A stretch of DNA of 64,000 nt, from assembly GCA_016841965.1 (NCBI GenBank), contig JAEANN010000015.1:1-64000 (forward strand), in the 5' to 3' direction. The position numbers were made by a program, and so were the translations under genes. Source of the DNA: Candidatus Roseilinea mizusawaensis (GTDB lineage Bacteria > Chloroflexota > Anaerolineae > J036 > Brachytrichaceae). Every line of letters starts with the position of its first letter. Position 1 is the first letter of the stretch. Below are positions 19,045-27,647 of the stretch, piece by piece. The notes under the pieces are model-generated. The model was not told the origin of the DNA. It searched no databases and saw nothing but the letters and a program-made list of their open reading frames with translations.

Positions 19045-19488
19045 TCAGGGTATTGGCGTCGGGGTGTCCGTCGGAGGCTGCGTGGGCATCTCAGTCGGTT
19101 CTGGGGTGGGCGTATCGGTGACAGTGGGCGGGGGTGTCTCGGTGGGGCTGGGTGATGGCGTGGGCGTGATGGTGGGCTGGCTCGTGGCCGTGGCCTGTGG
19201 AGCCGGCGTATCCGACGGCTGCGGGGTGATGCTCGGCGGCACAAACTGGGTCGGCATATCGCCGAAGGTGGGTGTGGGAGGCAGAGGCGTGAAAGTCTGG
19301 AGCAACGACGGTGCGAGCGCGCGAGTAGGTGTCGGCGTGGCACGATCGGGCTGACCGGGCTGCGCAATGAGCAGGGCGGCGATCCCGATCACATAGCACG
19401 GAATTGTCAACAAGATAATGCCGATGAGGATGCTGTAAACAGTGCGCCGGCTGGACAGCCGATTCGATAGTTGCTGCATTGGCTGCAA
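19045..19488 (-). CDS. Single-pass membrane protein with Thr/Pro-rich extracellular tail
   Basis: 147 residues with a short basic N-terminus, one hydrophobic helix (YSILIGIILLTIPCYVIG) and a tail of about 90 residues rich in Thr-Pro dipeptides (DTPTPEPTE, DTPTPIP). Such tails are common in Chloroflexota surface proteins and may span the wall or be glycosylated. There is no folded domain. The coding strand is chosen because the opposite frame would give an unlikely Gly/Val repeat protein. Function unknown. Confidence 0.6.
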   Translation of the reverse strand: MQPMQQLSNRLSSRRTVYSILIGIILLTIPCYVIGIAALLIAQPGQPDRATPTPTRALAPSLLQTFTPLPPTPTFGDMPTQFVPPSITPQPSDTPAPQATATSQPTITPTPSPSPTETPPPTVTDTPTPEPTEMPTQPPTDTPTPIP

Positions 19489-19634
19489 TTATAGGAGTTT
19501 GGCATGGGTGTAGTATCATCCCTCGTCTGTGGCCTGCGGTCACCTTAAGACTACACACAATCGCCAAAGCATCTTTTGGCGCGGCAACTGTGATAACTGA
19601 AATGTCTCAAGGAAACTCACACCGGGAGCGGTTC

Positions 19635-22600
19635 ATGTTTCAACCCGTCTCATCGCAACCTAACTTCGCGGCGCAACTCGCCGAGCAAGAACGCGACGTG
19701 CTGGCGTTCTGGGCGCGCACGCGCGCCTTCGAGCGGCTGCGCGAAAAGCTGGCCGGCGCAGCGCAACAATATTCCTTCCTCGACGGCCCTATCACAGCCA
19801 ACAACCCGATGGGCGTTCATCACGCCTGGGGCCGCACATACAAAGACCTGTGGCAGCGCTACCATGCAATGAACGGCCGCGACCAGCGTTGGCAAAATGG
19901 TTTCGACTGCCAGGGCCTATGGGTAGAAGTCAACGTCGAGAAAGACCTCGGCTATACCAGCAAACGCGACATCGAAGCGCACGGTGTACAACGCTTCATC
20001 AACCTGTGCAAGCAACGGGTGTTGAATTCGGCGGCGTTGCAGACCGAACAATCGATCCGCCTCGGCTACTGGATGGATTGGAACGACCCGACCGAGCTGC
20101 GCATGATGGCCGAACGCATCGTGGACAACCCGGAACAAATGATCGCCGTTGAACGCAACGGCACACTGATTCGCGGCAGCGTCGAACAACTGGTTGGACA
20201 ACTTGGCTCGCCAGAGCTGGGCGGTTCCTACTTCACGTTCAGTGATGAGAACAACTACCAGATCTGGGGGATGCTGAAGAAGTGTTACGAGCGCGGCTGG
20301 ATTTACAAGGGCAGCGATGTGATTCCCTGGTGCCCGCGCTGCGCCACCGGCATCAGCCAGCACGAAATGGACACCGAAGGGTACAAGGATCGCGCCGACA
20401 CCTCAGTCGTTGCGCAGATGAAACTGCGCCGCGTGGAGGCCTCGCGCGCCATCTGGCGATCGGAGAGTGCACGCGCAGCGTTCGAGACGGCAGACAATAA
20501 ATATCTGCTGGCGTGGACGACAACGCCATGGACGCTGCCGGCGAACATTCTGGCGGCGGTGGGGCCAAAGCTAAAGTACGCGATTGCGCGCCAGGCGCAC
20601 GAGGTGTATGTGCTGGGCGCGCAAACCTTAAAAACGCTTAAAGGCGACTACGAGGTGCTGGGCGAGATTGAAGGCAGCGCCTTGGTCGGCTGGACTTACG
20701 AAGGGCTGTTCGACGACCTGCCGGCGTGGGCCGATGCGTCGCAACAATGGCGCGACCGGCATCCCGGCCAGCCGGCATTCGAACACCAGGTCATCCCATG
20801 GGACGAAGTCAGCGAAGCCGAAGGCACAGGCATCGTGCACATCGCCCCCGGCGCCGGCCCAGAAGACTTCCAACTCGGCAAGCAATTCGACGCCCCATCA
20901 ATCGCGCCGCTGGCCGAAGACGGCTTCTATCTGGACGGCTTCGGCCCGCTCAGCGGCAAGTTTGCCCACGACGTTGCCGAACTCATCATCCAACTGCTGC
21001 GCGACAGGGGCCGCTTCTATCGCGCCGACCAGTACGTCCACCGCTATCCGCATTGCTGGCGCGACGGCACCCCCCTGGTATACCGACTGGTAGACGAGTG
21101 GTACATCTCGATGAACGAGTTGCGCCACGAAATGATCGAAGTCGCCAAACAAATTCGCTGGATTCCCGATTTTGGCCTCGAACGTGAACTCGACTGGCTG
21201 CGCAACATGCACGATTGGATGATCTCCAAGAAGCGCTATTGGGGACTGGCCTTGCCGATCTGGGAATATCCAGATGGCTCGTTCGAGGTTATCGGCAGCA
21301 AAGAAGAGCTGAAAGCGCGCGCGGTGGAAGGATGGGAGGAATTTGAAGGGCATACACCACACCGCCCGCACATCGACAAGATCAAAATTCGGCATCCAAA
21401 AACCGGCCTGATCGGGACGCGCATTCCCGACGTAGGCAATCCCTGGCTCGACGCCGGCATCGTGGCCTACTCTACCCTGCGCTATCGCAACGATCCCGAC
21501 TATTGGCGCAAGTGGTTCCCCGCCGACTTCATCACCGAGAGCTTCCCCGGCCAGTTCCGCAACTGGTTCTACTCGTTGATCGCCATGAGCACCGTGCTGG
21601 AGAACAAGCCGCCCACACGCACGGTGCTCGGCTTCGCCACCTTGCTCGACGCTAAAGGAAAGCCGATGCACAAATCGTCGGGCAATATGATCGAGTTCAA
21701 CGAGGCTGCTGATCGAGCCGGCGCAGACGTGATGCGCTGGCTGTACGCGCGACAGGCCTACGACGACAACCTGTTGTTCGGATGGGAAGCCCTTGACGAG
21801 GTGCGGCGGACACTGTTTATCCCGCTGTGGAATGTATACGCCTTCTTCGTGAACTACGCCAACATCGACAAGTGGGAGCCAAGCACACAGCCGGAAGCGC
21901 AAAGCCGTCCCCCGGCCTATAGCTCACTCGACCGCTGGATCCTCGCCCGGCTGAGCCAGGTCACCAGCCAGGCGCGCGCGGCGCTCGATGATTACAACGC
22001 CCGCGCGGCGGCGCTGGCCATCGAGAAGTTTGTCGATGACCTGTCCAACTGGTATGTGCGGCGCTCGCGCCGGCGCTTCTGGCGCAGCGAGTCGGACGCC
22101 GCCGGCCGGGCCGACAAACAAGCCGCCTACGCCACGCTGTATCGCGTGCTGACAACGCTGTGCCGATTGATGGCCCCCTTCACCCCCTTCCTGACCGAAG
22201 CGATGTGGCAGAACTTGGTCAACCGGCAAACTGTTCAGCACCCCGCCGACGCAGCCGAGGTCCAATCTGTGCATCACCAGCCCTACCCGGTCGCCGATCC
22301 GCTGTCTGATGATGAGGTGAAGCTGCTGCGCGATACGGCCATCGCCCGAACGATGGTCAACCTGGGGCACAGCACGCGCGCACAATCTGGCTTCAAGGTG
22401 CGCCAGCCGCTGGCCCGCGCTCTGGTGGTAGCCGACACCTATTCACAGGCCGCGATTCGCGCCCAAGAGGACGTGATCGCCGAAGAGCTGAACGTCAAGC
22501 GAATCGAGTTTGTCGAGCGCGAAGGCGAACTGGTGAGCTACAAGATACTGCCCGATAACAAAAAACTCGGCCCACAGTTCGGGGCGCTGTTCCCACAGGT

Positions 22601-23087
22601 GCGCAAGGCGCTGTCGGCGTTGGACCCCAACCAGGTGGCTGCGGCGGTAAAAGCAGGAGAGGCGGTGGAAGTGCAGCTTGACGATCGCACCGTATCGCTG
22701 CCGGCCGGCGACATTATCGTGCAGGCCATGCCACGCGAGGGCCTGGTCGTCGCCGGCGAGAATGGCATCGTCGTAGCGATGGATACCGCACTGACAGAAT
22801 CGCTGGTGTATGAAGGCTTGGCGCGTGAGGTGGTGCGCCGGATCAACGACCTGCGCAAGTCCGCCGGACTCAATCTGACCGACCGCATCATCACAACTTA
22901 CACGGCCACACCCCGACTGGCTGCGGCAATCGACGCATTTGCCGCATATATCCGCGATGAAACACTGTCAGTCACATTACAGCATGCACAGACGCCATCC
23001 GACATCACCGGACAAACGGCCAGCGACACCTTTGACGGCGAATCGCTTACAATTGGGGCTGTGCGTGCGCCGACAAATGCACGATGA
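19635..23087 (+). CDS. ileS: Isoleucyl-tRNA synthetase
   Basis: A class Ia synthetase of 1150 residues. ATG 19635 has GGGAG seven bases upstream. The HIGH-region equivalent is MGVHHAWGRT after LDGPITANNP, and the KMSKS-loop equivalent is GKPMHKSSGN, both divergent from the textbook forms but matching one IleRS subgroup. An editing domain lies between (for example LAWTTTPWTLPANI). The C-terminus has an anticodon-binding helical domain (RRSRRRFWRS) and a tail. No T-box leader was seen upstream. It heads the ileS, fusion gene, lspA, PH-SHOCT, murA cluster; ileS next to lspA is a common bacterial order. Confidence 0.95.
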   Translation: MFQPVSSQPNFAAQLAEQERDVLAFWARTRAFERLREKLAGAAQQYSFLDGPITANNPMGVHHAWGRTYKDLWQRYHAMNGRDQRWQNGFDCQGLWVEVNVEKDLGYTSKRDIEAHGVQRFINLCKQRVLNSAALQTEQSIRLGYWMDWNDPTELRMMAERIVDNPEQMIAVERNGTLIRGSVEQLVGQLGSPELGGSYFTFSDENNYQIWGMLKKCYERGWIYKGSDVIPWCPRCATGISQHEMDTEGYKDRADTSVVAQMKLRRVEASRAIWRSESARAAFETADNKYLLAWTTTPWTLPANILAAVGPKLKYAIARQAHEVYVLGAQTLKTLKGDYEVLGEIEGSALVGWTYEGLFDDLPAWADASQQWRDRHPGQPAFEHQVIPWDEVSEAEGTGIVHIAPGAGPEDFQLGKQFDAPSIAPLAEDGFYLDGFGPLSGKFAHDVAELIIQLLRDRGRFYRADQYVHRYPHCWRDGTPLVYRLVDEWYISMNELRHEMIEVAKQIRWIPDFGLERELDWLRNMHDWMISKKRYWGLALPIWEYPDGSFEVIGSKEELKARAVEGWEEFEGHTPHRPHIDKIKIRHPKTGLIGTRIPDVGNPWLDAGIVAYSTLRYRNDPDYWRKWFPADFITESFPGQFRNWFYSLIAMSTVLENKPPTRTVLGFATLLDAKGKPMHKSSGNMIEFNEAADRAGADVMRWLYARQAYDDNLLFGWEALDEVRRTLFIPLWNVYAFFVNYANIDKWEPSTQPEAQSRPPAYSSLDRWILARLSQVTSQARAALDDYNARAAALAIEKFVDDLSNWYVRRSRRRFWRSESDAAGRADKQAAYATLYRVLTTLCRLMAPFTPFLTEAMWQNLVNRQTVQHPADAAEVQSVHHQPYPVADPLSDDEVKLLRDTAIARTMVNLGHSTRAQSGFKVRQPLARALVVADTYSQAAIRAQEDVIAEELNVKRIEFVEREGELVSYKILPDNKKLGPQFGALFPQVRKALSALDPNQVAAAVKAGEAVEVQLDDRTVSLPAGDIIVQAMPREGLVVAGENGIVVAMDTALTESLVYEGLAREVVRRINDLRKSAGLNLTDRIITTYTATPRLAAAIDAFAAYIRDETLSVTLQHAQTPSDITGQTASDTFDGESLTIGAVRAPTNAR

Positions 23088-23157: not shown

Positions 23158-25014
23158 GTGTCAGATCTACCAGCCAGTCAGCAATCAGCGCCGGCGCTTG
23201 GGCGCCAGCCCATCTACCCAACGACAGACATTGATCTTCAAGATGACGCGGGCAAAACCCAGTTTCCATCTTTAACGCCGGGAGAGGCGCGCGCTGCGCA
23301 TCAACTGCTGACCCAATTCGACCGGCTAGATGCCCGCAACATCATCGCTTTGCTCGGCCCGCGTTGGTGCGGCAAGAGCACAGTGCTCAATGCCTTGCTC
23401 GCTCCTGCACCTGGCCGGCGTATCCGCACACCGGATCATCGCAAAGTGATCGGTATGCTCATCGATGCCGGCGCGATCAATACAGCCGAGGGCAAGTCGC
23501 CCTGGCACCATCTGGTGCTAAACGTGCTCGAACTGCTGGCATCGCACGCCATGCCCACCGAGCGCAAGCTCATCAACGACTTGCGTTCGGAATTGCTGCG
23601 GGCAACACGCTCCGGCGCACGAGCAGATTCAGACAACCGGCTGGCCATTGCCGCATTCGCGCATCACTTCCGCACCGCCTATCCCCGCCTGGTGATGAAC
23701 GTGTTCTCACTGTCGAATGCAGTGCTGGTGGTTGGCATTGACCATCTAGACCGCGCGCCGGCCAGCCAGATCACCGAGTGGCTCGAAGCGGCCAACTACT
23801 TTCTCAGCGCGCCGGGCTGTGCAGTTGTCGCGTGCGCCGATGACGCTGCCCTCATCGCCAAATTACACCAGAACACCAATCCCATCCCATACCAAGACAC
23901 CCCGCCGGCCATGACCAACGAGGCCGTGCTGGACAAATGGCTGCCTCGACGCGTGACGATTGAAGTGCTCAGCCCAGCCATTAGGCCAGCGCCATCTCCC
24001 AGAGCTGCCCGCGAGTCGCTCAAAGCAGCAGAAGCGTCAAATCAGGGCCATCAAACCATACCGCCGGCTTGCATGAACATCATCACATCCGCCTTGGAGC
24101 CTGATCGCCGGCTGATCGAGGTGGCCGCCGACAACTGGCGCGCCGCCATGCAAGCAGTGATCAAACGCGCGGAAGACGGCATCGGCAACGCCATCTCGTC
24201 TACCCTGATTGCCAAGCTGGTCGCGCTTCAAGCATTGTCGCCGCAGTTGTTTGACGCAGGACGATACAACGCCCGCCTGTTGGTTACGCTGGAGCAACAG
24301 TTGCGCGGCGAGATACACGTCCCCCCCGGTGACGATTGGTATGGCGCAGTCAGCCAGCATTCGGCCCTAAGATCATTGTTGAGCGCGAGTCCATTGTTCT
24401 CCGAGGTGGCATTGCCTGATTTGGCGGCTGCATTGAGGCTGACATACGCTGGCCGGGAGGCCGAATCTGACCGGCCAACCGCAGCACCGTCGCACGCGTC
24501 CGTGCCCGCAGCACACCCTGCCGGCGCAGGGATCATCGCGCCGGCCAACCTTGACGCCGCCCAAGAGAGCACGACGCAGCCCTTCACACTGGGGCTGCCG
24601 GCATGGATATCGGCGATTGTGGCCGGCGGCGTGTTCATTATCGATCGCCTCGCTAAACTGCTGGTGGTCGCAGCGCAGCCTGAAATTATCTATACCAGCA
24701 TGGCCGGCGCAACGGCTACATCGAACGCGCTGGCAGTGGGCGCCGAGTTATTCGGCGTTGCCCTATGCGCGCTCATCCTACTGTTTTGGGGCGGTGCGCG
24801 ACCACAGCGGCTGTACTCGATCAGCCTGGGATGCATTCTCGGCGCGCTGACATCTAACTTATTCGACCGGCTGGCGTATGGGCACGTGCTCAATTTCATT
24901 CACATCGCCAACCTGCCCGTGTTCAACGTGTCTCATGTGGCGCTGCTAAGCGGGGCGCTCCTGCTGGGCGTATCGCTGTTGCGCAACGGGCTGAGCCGCC
25001 AGCCACAGCCTTGA
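23158..25014 (+). CDS. KAP-like P-loop NTPase fused to a degenerate LspA-like membrane domain
   Basis: 618 residues from GTG 23158. The N-terminal half resembles a KAP NTPase: Walker A GPRWCGKST near residue 65 and Walker B VLVVGIDHLDRAPAS followed by LEAANYFLSAPGCAVVACADD. After a variable linker, residues from about 480 on contain several membrane segments that follow lipoprotein signal peptidase order: IIDRLAKLLV (like the D-Q-x-x-K motif), GALTSNLFDRLAYGHVLNFI and PVFNVSHVALLSGALLL. Asp570 aligns with the first catalytic Asp, but the second (FN-x-A-D) is His593, and the DF of G-x-V-x-DF is NF. The domain is therefore probably not a protease. A true lspA lies 46 bases downstream, suggesting origin by duplication and fusion. 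Confidence 0.75.
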   Translation: MSDLPASQQSAPALGRQPIYPTTDIDLQDDAGKTQFPSLTPGEARAAHQLLTQFDRLDARNIIALLGPRWCGKSTVLNALLAPAPGRRIRTPDHRKVIGMLIDAGAINTAEGKSPWHHLVLNVLELLASHAMPTERKLINDLRSELLRATRSGARADSDNRLAIAAFAHHFRTAYPRLVMNVFSLSNAVLVVGIDHLDRAPASQITEWLEAANYFLSAPGCAVVACADDAALIAKLHQNTNPIPYQDTPPAMTNEAVLDKWLPRRVTIEVLSPAIRPAPSPRAARESLKAAEASNQGHQTIPPACMNIITSALEPDRRLIEVAADNWRAAMQAVIKRAEDGIGNAISSTLIAKLVALQALSPQLFDAGRYNARLLVTLEQQLRGEIHVPPGDDWYGAVSQHSALRSLLSASPLFSEVALPDLAAALRLTYAGREAESDRPTAAPSHASVPAAHPAGAGIIAPANLDAAQESTTQPFTLGLPAWISAIVAGGVFIIDRLAKLLVVAAQPEIIYTSMAGATATSNALAVGAELFGVALCALILLFWGGARPQRLYSISLGCILGALTSNLFDRLAYGHVLNFIHIANLPVFNVSHVALLSGALLLGVSLLRNGLSRQPQP

Positions 25015-25060: not shown

Positions 25061-25633
25061 ATGAAAAGTGAATCGTTCCGCAAGCTATCTCCACTCGACC
25101 GGGTGCTGCTCTTCATTGTTGCCCTGATTGCGCTGGCAGCCGACCAGATCAGCAAAGTGCTCGTGCAGACAAACATTCCACTCGGCATGACAGTGCCGAT
25201 TGCGCCATTCCTGACGCCATACCTGACCTTCACCCATGTGCAGAACACAGGCGCTGCATTCAGCCTGTTTCAAAACGCCAACTGGTTTTTTATCATCGTC
25301 GCCACCCTCGTAGCCGGCCTGATCGTGTACTACACCCCGCGCCTGCCGCCCGGCGATAAGCTGTCGCGCGCCGCGCTCGGCTTACAACTGGGCGGAGCCG
25401 TGGGCAACCTGATTGATCGTCTGCGCTTCGGCTATGTGACCGATTTCATTCATCTGCAAGTGCCGGAGATCGGATTTGACTGGCCAGTTTCGAACATCGC
25501 CGACATTTGCATTGTGTCCGGCGTGATTCTGCTGATCGCCTGGAGCGCACTTCAAGAACGCGCCCAACAACGCGCACAAGCCCAACAAGAACAGCAGAGC
25601 CAGCAAACAACGCAGGAAACCGCCGGAGAGTAA
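25061..25633 (+). CDS. lspA: Lipoprotein signal peptidase (signal peptidase II)
   Basis: An aspartic protease of the inner membrane that removes signal peptides of lipidated prolipoproteins. 190 residues. Motifs are ALAADQISKVLVQ, FTHVQNTGAAFSLFQ, GGAVGNLIDRLRFGYVTDFI (first catalytic Asp) and VSNIADICIVSGVILL (second catalytic Asp), with four membrane segments. A Gln-rich charged tail (about 25 residues) extends beyond the usual end. It would process the lipoproteins encoded in this window (amino acid and sugar binding proteins, and the 34405 lipoprotein). Confidence 0.96.
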   Translation: MKSESFRKLSPLDRVLLFIVALIALAADQISKVLVQTNIPLGMTVPIAPFLTPYLTFTHVQNTGAAFSLFQNANWFFIIVATLVAGLIVYYTPRLPPGDKLSRAALGLQLGGAVGNLIDRLRFGYVTDFIHLQVPEIGFDWPVSNIADICIVSGVILLIAWSALQERAQQRAQAQQEQQSQQTTQETAGE

Positions 25634-25709: not shown

Positions 25710-26366
25710 ATGGCCGGTTACGTCGAAAGCCTTCTCGGCGCTAATGAAAAGATCATTATTCGTCGCCGACAGCACTGGTTGATCTGGGTGCCCCGGCTGG
25801 TTCTGTATGCGCTGATCGCAGTTGCGATTGCAGTCGCCAGCGCGCTCACGGGGATGCTGACAGGCGGCGTCGGCGCTTTCGGCATCGTATTTGTGCTCAT
25901 CCCCCTGCTTATGATGGTCAAAGAGTGGATCGACTGGTGGACTGAAGAATACATCGTCACCAACCGCCGCATCATCCAGTCCGAGGGGTTCATCAACAAA
26001 CACGTCGTTGATTCATCGCTGGAGAAGATCAACGATGTCGTGCTGGCGCAATCAGTGCTGGGGCGGATTTTTGACTACGGCGACATCAAAATCTTGACCA
26101 GCAGCGACATTGGGGTCAACCGGCTGGACAAGCTGGCCAGGCCGGTGCAGTTCAAAATCGCCATGTTGAACGCAAAAGAGGCGCTGCGGCAAAGCAGCGA
26201 CAACGAAGACCTGGGCGCAGCGCAAACAGCCCAAGGCGGTGCAGGCAAACTAGGCTTGACCGAAATATCCGACCGGCTTGAAGAACTGGAAGATCTGCGC
26301 AAGAAAGGGTTGATCAGCGAGCAAGAGTTCCAGACCAAGCGCGCCAATCTTCTGAAGCGGGTTTGA
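25710..26366 (+). CDS. Membrane PH-domain (bPH2) protein with SHOCT tail
   Basis: 218 residues. It has two hydrophobic segments (LVLYALIAVAIAVASAL and FGIVFVLIPLLMMV), then a bacterial PH domain (EEYIVTNRRIIQSEGFIN, SLEKINDVVLAQS, FDYGDIKI), then a C-terminal SHOCT motif (LEELEDLRKKGLISEQEFQT). Such proteins are thought to be small membrane-anchored scaffolds. The exact role is unknown. It lies six bases upstream of murA and is likely co-transcribed. Confidence 0.85.
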   Translation: MAGYVESLLGANEKIIIRRRQHWLIWVPRLVLYALIAVAIAVASALTGMLTGGVGAFGIVFVLIPLLMMVKEWIDWWTEEYIVTNRRIIQSEGFINKHVVDSSLEKINDVVLAQSVLGRIFDYGDIKILTSSDIGVNRLDKLARPVQFKIAMLNAKEALRQSSDNEDLGAAQTAQGGAGKLGLTEISDRLEELEDLRKKGLISEQEFQTKRANLLKRV

Positions 26367-26372
26367 GGGAGC

Positions 26373-27647
26373 ATGTCTGAGTTCATCATTCAGGGCGGGG
26401 CGCGTCTGCGCGGCGAAGTGCAGTCGTCGGGCAACAAGAACGCCACACTGCCCCTGCTGGCTGCCTCCTTGTTGACCGATCAACCTGTGACGTTTCACAA
26501 CGTCCCGAATATCCGCGATGTGCAGGCCATGCTGAAGCTACTACAGTCGCTGGGGGTGTCTGCAGAGTGGATCGGGCCAAACAGTGTGCGCCTGCAGGCA
26601 GACCAGGTCAATCAATGCCAGCTAGACCCGGGGGTGTGCAAAGAGATTCGAGCCAGCATTCTGCTGGCCGGACCAATGCTGGCTCGCACCGGCCATATCA
26701 AATTGCCACCGCCAGGCGGCGATGTGATCGGACGCCGGCGCGTAGACACACATTTCCTGGCGCTGAAAGCGCTGGGGGCCGACCTGCGCGTCGATGGCGG
26801 GTTTGAGCTATTCGCGCAGCGGCTGGCAGCCGCCGACATCATGCTGGATGAAGCCAGCGTGACAGCGACGGAGAACGCCATCATGGCAGCGGCGCTGGCA
26901 GCGGGAGAGACTGTCATCCGCAACGCAGCCAGCGAACCACACGTGCAAGACTTGTGCCACTGCCTCAATAAGATGGGCGCGCGCATCCGGCATATCGGCT
27001 CTAACACGCTCAAGATCGAAGGCGTGCCACACCTCAATGGCGCCGAGTTCACCATCGGCGCGGATAACATCGAGGTCACCAGCTTCATCGTTATCGGCGC
27101 GTTGTGCGGCGACGGCATATGGATTCGCAAGGCAAGCCCCGAACACTTGCGCATGACACAACTGATGCTGGGACGCATCGGCATCCGCTTCGAAATTCAT
27201 GGGCCGGATGTGTATGTGCCGGGCGACCAGCCCCTGCGCGTCGAGCCTGAGCTGGACGGGGCGATCCCCAAAATCGATGACAACCCCTGGCCAGCCTTTC
27301 CGGCCGACGCAATGAGCCTGGCAATTGTGGCCGCCACCCAGTCGAACGGCACCGTGCTTTTCCACGAGAAGATGTTCGAAAGCCGGCTGTACTTTGTGGA
27401 CAAACTGATCAGCATGGGTGCGCGGATTGTGTTGTGCGATCCACATCGCTGTATCGTGCAAGGCCCCAGCCGGCTGCACGGCGAAACAGTGCAAAGCCCC
27501 GACATCCGCGCCGGCGTGGCGTTGGTCATTGCTGCATTGTGCGCCGAAGGCCGCAGCACCATCTCAAACATTCAGCAAATCGACCGGGGCTACGAACGCT
27601 TCGATGAAAAGTTGCGCGCGCTGGGAGCAGACATCGAGCGCAGATAG
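26373..27647 (+). CDS. murA: UDP-N-acetylglucosamine 1-carboxyvinyltransferase, Asp-type
   Basis: First committed step of peptidoglycan synthesis, adding enolpyruvate from PEP to UDP-GlcNAc. 424 residues. Conserved motifs are [26 protein letters not shown], and later [15 protein letters not shown] and [17 protein letters not shown]. The active-site loop reads [13 protein letters not shown], so the usual Cys (Cys115 in E. coli) is Asp117 (codon GAT at 26721-26723). Asp enzymes are known from mycobacteria and chlamydiae; they remain active and are not alkylated by fosfomycin, so intrinsic resistance is expected. It presumably cooperates with the LCP protein and LspA region in envelope building. 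Confidence 0.96.

Follow-up and report, generated by a model that had tools for sequence, protein, structure and literature searches.

What does a gene wedged between ileS and lspA do when its product joins a P-loop NTPase to a membrane domain that resembles the very peptidase encoded next to it? The locus lies in a window of 64,000 nucleotides (the whole stretch of DNA analysed) from Candidatus Roseilinea mizusawaensis, and an earlier note, made from its letters, had read the gene as a fusion of a KAP-like NTPase with a noncatalytic signal peptidase II (LspA), placed in an ileS–lspA slot. The motifs quoted there are all found in the window protein and the gene order is as described (Table 1); the reading frame of 618 codons is single and free of internal stops. 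Pfam matches KAP_NTPase to the N-terminal half and Peptidase_A8 to residues 492–608, and the downstream lspA scores 120 bits against TIGR00077, above the cut-off. On the 3' side of lspA, the window carries a bPH_2-SHOCT protein and a MurA-like gene (25710–27647), as do the window's genus and genus g8; no matches to these two genes lie beside lspA in other genera.

Table 1. Features of the fusion gene and its neighbours (positions in the window; residues of the 618-residue protein)
Feature	Position	Strand	Remarks
Fusion gene	23158..25014	+	618 aa: pseudo-KAP NTPase, linker and pseudo-LspA
P-loop NTPase domain, KAP/RdrA-like	23260..23982	+	residues 35–275; Pfam KAP_NTPase, AF2 model
Walker A GPRWCGKS, residues 67–74	23356..23379	+	intact in window protein, broken in several orthologues
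Walker B region LVVGIDHLD, residues 190–198	23725..23751	+	Asp195 retained, His196 replaces second acid; class KAP alignment
Helical lid / C-terminal NTPase part, residues 300–435	24055..24462	+	aligns colinearly with KAPs of the class; NPR (sensor 2) missing
Disordered fast-evolving linker, residues 436–476	24463..24585	+	pLDDT 34–52; dN/dS ~0.8 (window vs L031)
Pseudo-LspA membrane domain, residues 477–612	24586..24993	+	Peptidase_A8 profile; AF2 vs 5dir_B
Asp496	24643..24645	+	LspA DxxxK Asp (S. aureus D21); invariant
Asp570	24865..24867	+	LspA NxxDR Asp (S. aureus D109), no dyad residue; invariant
Asn579	24892..24894	+	aligns with first dyad Asp, S. aureus D118; Asn 21/25, Asp 1/25
His593	24934..24936	+	aligns with second dyad Asp, S. 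aureus D136; His 25/25
ileS, upstream neighbour	19479..23087	+	
lspA (signal peptidase II)	25061..25633	+	intact, both catalytic Asp kept

The LspA fold of the C-terminus is borne out by profile and model alike. Peptidase_A8 matches the whole protein at E 1.4e-11 and residues 474–618 at 5.7e-13, and the match recurs in 24 of 25 members. The AF2 model of the domain (pLDDT 84.5, pTM 0.79) takes the fold of LspA, aligning over 126 residues with 5dir_B (Z 15.0, rmsd 2.9), followed by 6ryp (Z 14.5) and 6ryo (Z 14.0), the next unrelated fold reaching only Z 6.7; by hydropathy, membrane segments occur solely after residue 476.

The positions of the catalytic dyad were mapped by alignment to the LspA of Pseudomonas aeruginosa and Staphylococcus aureus, the sequences of the solved structures. 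In S. aureus LspA, the dyad consists of Asp118 and Asp136, and D118N and D136N each leave 0% activity (PMC6952399). The fusion has both positions substituted, and the Asn at the first is the same D-to-N change as in the inactive S. aureus D118N. The earlier note was thus right that His593 occupies the place of the second catalytic Asp and mistaken in keeping the first, as Asp570, which it took for the survivor, aligns with the NxxDR Asp of LspA. None of the 25 orthologues retains both catalytic Asp and a single one (L035) retains the first, while the family's true LspA proteins keep both, together with the NxG motif, in 24/24 aligned proteins. The loss of catalysis that had been proposed is consistent with the replacement of both positions, and prolipoprotein cleavage is probably not a conserved function of the fusion.

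What surrounds the lost dyad has been kept to a large degree. The S. aureus study listed 14 conserved LspA residues (PMC6952399), and the window protein matches D21, K25, G102, N106, D109, R110, V116, F132 and N133 in S. aureus numbering; at the A135 position it has Ser, the orthologues having Ala in 19/25. N52 and G54, the NxG motif of the beta-cradle/extracellular loop, are absent from it, and the motif is missing across the fusions apart from one chance string in L047, the region being variable and 26–50 aa long. The pocket residues D496, D570 and H593 are each present in 25/25 orthologues, K500 in 24/25 and R571 in 20/25, and the 12 alignable LspA-conserved columns are conserved at a mean of 0.85, against 0.53 in the domain (permutation p 5e-5; 25 orthologues).

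At the other end of the protein, residues ~35–435 form a KAP/RdrA-like P-loop NTPase, as the earlier note had suspected: KAP_NTPase matches the window protein at E 4e-5 with 23–24 bits, against a gathering score of 20, and 24/25 members at E<=0.01, and the NTPase in the AF2 whole-protein model is closest to RdrA (8hr8, Z 16.2, 229 residues aligned), with matches to other STAND/AAA folds as well. Aligned with seven KAPs from the class, the fusion is colinear over the P-loop, Walker B, the helix that follows and the helical lid, and the differences fall on the catalytic motifs. Position 196, directly after the Walker B Asp, is H, R, K, Q or N in 25/25 fusions vs D or E in 7/7 class KAPs, and the Arg-bearing sensor-2 NPR motif is gone. 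Walker A, though intact in the window protein, is broken or altered in L033–L036 (one genus), L044, L050 and L051 and one residue short in L049, with at least 6/25 orthologues having it broken; most members have Walker A and the Walker B Asp intact. The label "ATP-dependent" of the earlier note cannot be upheld, and because of the Walker A losses, the missing Walker B acid and the missing sensor-2 Arg, ATP hydrolysis by the fusion appears unlikely. ATP binding would not be family-wide, and nucleotide binding and slow hydrolysis are possible in the members with an intact Walker A and Walker B Asp. Elsewhere in the class Anaerolineae, KAP NTPases with a C-terminal FGE-sulfatase (SUMF1-like) domain were seen (L060, L061, L138, L140 and L142), the C-terminus being Pfam-confirmed for L060 and L138 and read from the sequence for the other three.

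Degenerate motifs have not released the gene from constraint. Between the window and L031, dN/dS is ~0.26 for the whole gene, 0.21 for the NTPase and 0.14 for the pseudo-LspA, compared with 0.11 for LspA and ~0.8 for the linker, and judged from these sequences both halves of the fusion are under purifying selection. In L033 and L035, a pair lacking Walker A, NTPase dN is 0.16 with dS near saturation, and the low dN implies that constraint persists even without the P-loop.

Protein searches, first in 99 relatives and afterwards in the family's 28 genomes, found the fusion in 27 of the 28 (Candidatus Roseilinea relatives, Anaerolineae), counting two in which a contig end cuts it (G012 and G018); the lone genome without it, G019, is 78% complete. 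The clade's named records are Thermoflexales and Candidatus Roseilinea MAGs, and the family is one of Chloroflexota from hot springs and fresh water. Outside the family, no fusion was detected in 396 genomes sampled from the class or in 400 from the phylum, the matches there being true LspA or ordinary KAP proteins. The search among other Chloroflexota that the earlier note had called for thus finds the gene conserved among relatives and in no other sampled family, and its recurrence rules out a frameshift or misassembly. Phage and plasmid records gave no match to the fusion, which speaks against a mobile or phage origin.

The order ileS–fusion–lspA is kept in every genus except g2, and at nine loci the fusion and lspA overlap, stop with start, by 1–8 bases, the start codons being script-chosen. 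In g2, the fusion still follows ileS and a true LspA gene is present elsewhere in the genome, which shows that the fusion need not be closely linked to lspA; in the fusion of this genus (L052:5001–6632), a repetitive Ser/Thr/Ala-rich linker takes the place of the helical lid. The fusion gene has been vertically inherited in the ileS–lspA slot. In a tree of 71 sequences, all 25 pseudo-LspA domains form one clade (100/99) on a long branch, apart from every true LspA, and the family's LspA is a separate clade within which they do not nest. This placement supports a single ancient origin of the pseudo-LspA and speaks against a young tandem duplicate of the adjacent lspA; the duplication of the neighbouring gene envisaged earlier is possible and unsupported, and, the branch being long, descent from that gene is only plausible.

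How closely the fusion is tied to LspA in function is a separate matter. The earlier note had proposed a partner of lipoprotein processing; what supports a partnership with LspA is synteny, and in mirror-tree comparisons the partial rate correlation between the two after removing IleS is weak (r 0.13 and 0.20), with little signal beyond phylogeny and a weak case for specific coevolution. The gene order above all, together with the LspA pocket, plausibly links the fusion to lipoprotein maturation. The pathway itself is not missing: lgt is present in the window's genome, where four LGT-family genes were matched (G000: C16, C45, C48 and C34; L163–L166), two strongly and two weakly, together with one true LspA. 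Additional LspA-like genes were observed elsewhere: two intact-looking lspA genes in tandem in a different family of Anaerolineae (G082, L059:3139–4302), adjacent double lspA matches resembling this pair in G577 and G636, and in G022 a second, very divergent LspA-like gene outside the ileS slot (L162:2934–3428).

The explanation that we favour, at a probability of about one half, is that the fusion is a double pseudoenzyme, specific to this family and anchored in the membrane, in which the LspA pocket survives for binding or regulation and which plausibly tunes or senses lipoprotein maturation. We are led to a binding or regulatory role because the chemistry is lost in both halves, the pocket is invariant and selection continues. 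By LspA topology, the NTPase domain is predicted to be cytoplasmic, and in the model the disordered linker joins it to the four-helix LspA-fold bundle. Such a protein would neither cleave prolipoproteins nor hydrolyse ATP as a conserved function; its retained pocket (DxxxK, NxxDR and FN, with His for a dyad Asp) may bind LspA itself or a ligand, for example a lipid or a lipidated signal peptide, and on the cytoplasmic side the domain derived from KAP would relay this binding or scaffold it, so that, most plausibly, the fusion would tune or sense lipoprotein maturation alongside the real LspA. The more specific proposal that a two-pseudoenzyme membrane device, a dead KAP-type ATPase with a dead LspA carrying an Asp-to-His change, regulates or senses lipoprotein maturation beside the genuine LspA is one we put forward only tentatively.

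Alternatively, the LspA-like part could be a mere membrane anchor for a KAP-type signalling NTPase, in which case its descent from LspA and its location beside lspA would be incidental. KAP relatives in the class bear other C-terminal modules such as FGE-sulfatase, so swapping at this end does occur, and the absence of excess covariation with LspA and the persistence of the fusion apart from lspA in g2 would both be expected. An anchor, however, requires no invariant intramembrane D496, D570 and H593, nor K500, all of which exceed the conservation of the domain, and the decay has hit the P-loop rather than the LspA pocket; we regard this explanation as rather unlikely. A novel catalytic or metal-binding site built from Asp496, Asp570 and His593 is improbable, too: the three are invariant and ionisable, their positions cluster around the LspA active site, and His stands for the dyad Asp in 25/25 instead of a random mix of residues, but the Asp at 496 and 570 are conserved in ordinary LspA as well, perhaps as structural residues, which leaves His alone as new, and the substrate-holding beta-cradle has been lost.

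KAP and RdrA-like NTPases are known from anti-phage systems (RADAR RdrA, QatA), and one may ask whether the fusion is a conflict or defence protein whose LspA-like part senses envelope damage or diverts an LspA inhibitor such as globomycin. RdrA is the closest solved fold of the NTPase and there is a weak match to QatA, but vertical inheritance at one housekeeping locus in 27/28 genomes, with housekeeping genes on either side, the lack of phage and plasmid matches, the degenerate NTPase and the missing beta-cradle with its globomycin-contacting Asn and Gly make this very improbable. An assembly artefact, frameshift or decaying gene would account for degenerate motifs in both halves and can practically be dismissed, as the ORF is intact in ~25 independent assemblies, dN/dS is well under 1 and residues are invariant.

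If the fusion does act as a binding or regulatory pseudoenzyme, a family-wide, selected LspA without its catalytic Asp, joined to a nucleotide-binding-type domain, would imply that the LspA scaffold is usable for binding alone, and the protein would be a natural instance of the D-to-N change that kills LspA in the laboratory. LspA is an antibiotic target, and we know of no dedicated protein regulator of it, nor of any described pseudo-peptidase regulator of the lipoprotein pathway. Our search of the literature for an LspA paralogue, pseudoenzyme, or fused or inactive version found nothing relevant and no counterpart of this architecture, in agreement with the earlier note.

Among known systems, RdrA of RADAR (8hr8, 8fnt) shares the fold of the NTPase core. 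It combines two Walker B Asp (DD) with sensor 1 and an Arg in sensor 2 (PMC9994260), whereas in the fusion only the first of these Asp is left and NPR is missing; RdrA also has a large helical C-terminus and no membrane domain. With KAP NTPases (PF07693; e.g., the KAP-FGE-sulfatase proteins L060 and L138 of the class), the fusion has in common W116, the helix that comes after Walker B, and the P-loop, Walker B and helical lid, which run colinearly, whereas it lacks the acid after the Walker B Asp, the sensor-2 NPR and the FGE-sulfatase, and its membrane helices are found solely in the C-terminal LspA-like domain. The KAP family is described as having membrane helices inserted within the P-loop domain; hydropathy finds none there in the fusion, and several class KAPs are likewise without them. 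From signal peptidase II (PF01252 Peptidase_A8; 5dir, 6ryo, 6ryp), the fusion differs by Asn579 and His593 in place of the catalytic Asp, the missing NxG/beta-cradle and the large N-terminal NTPase, and with it, it shares the four-helix fold, DxxxK, NxxDR, FN and the position next to ileS.
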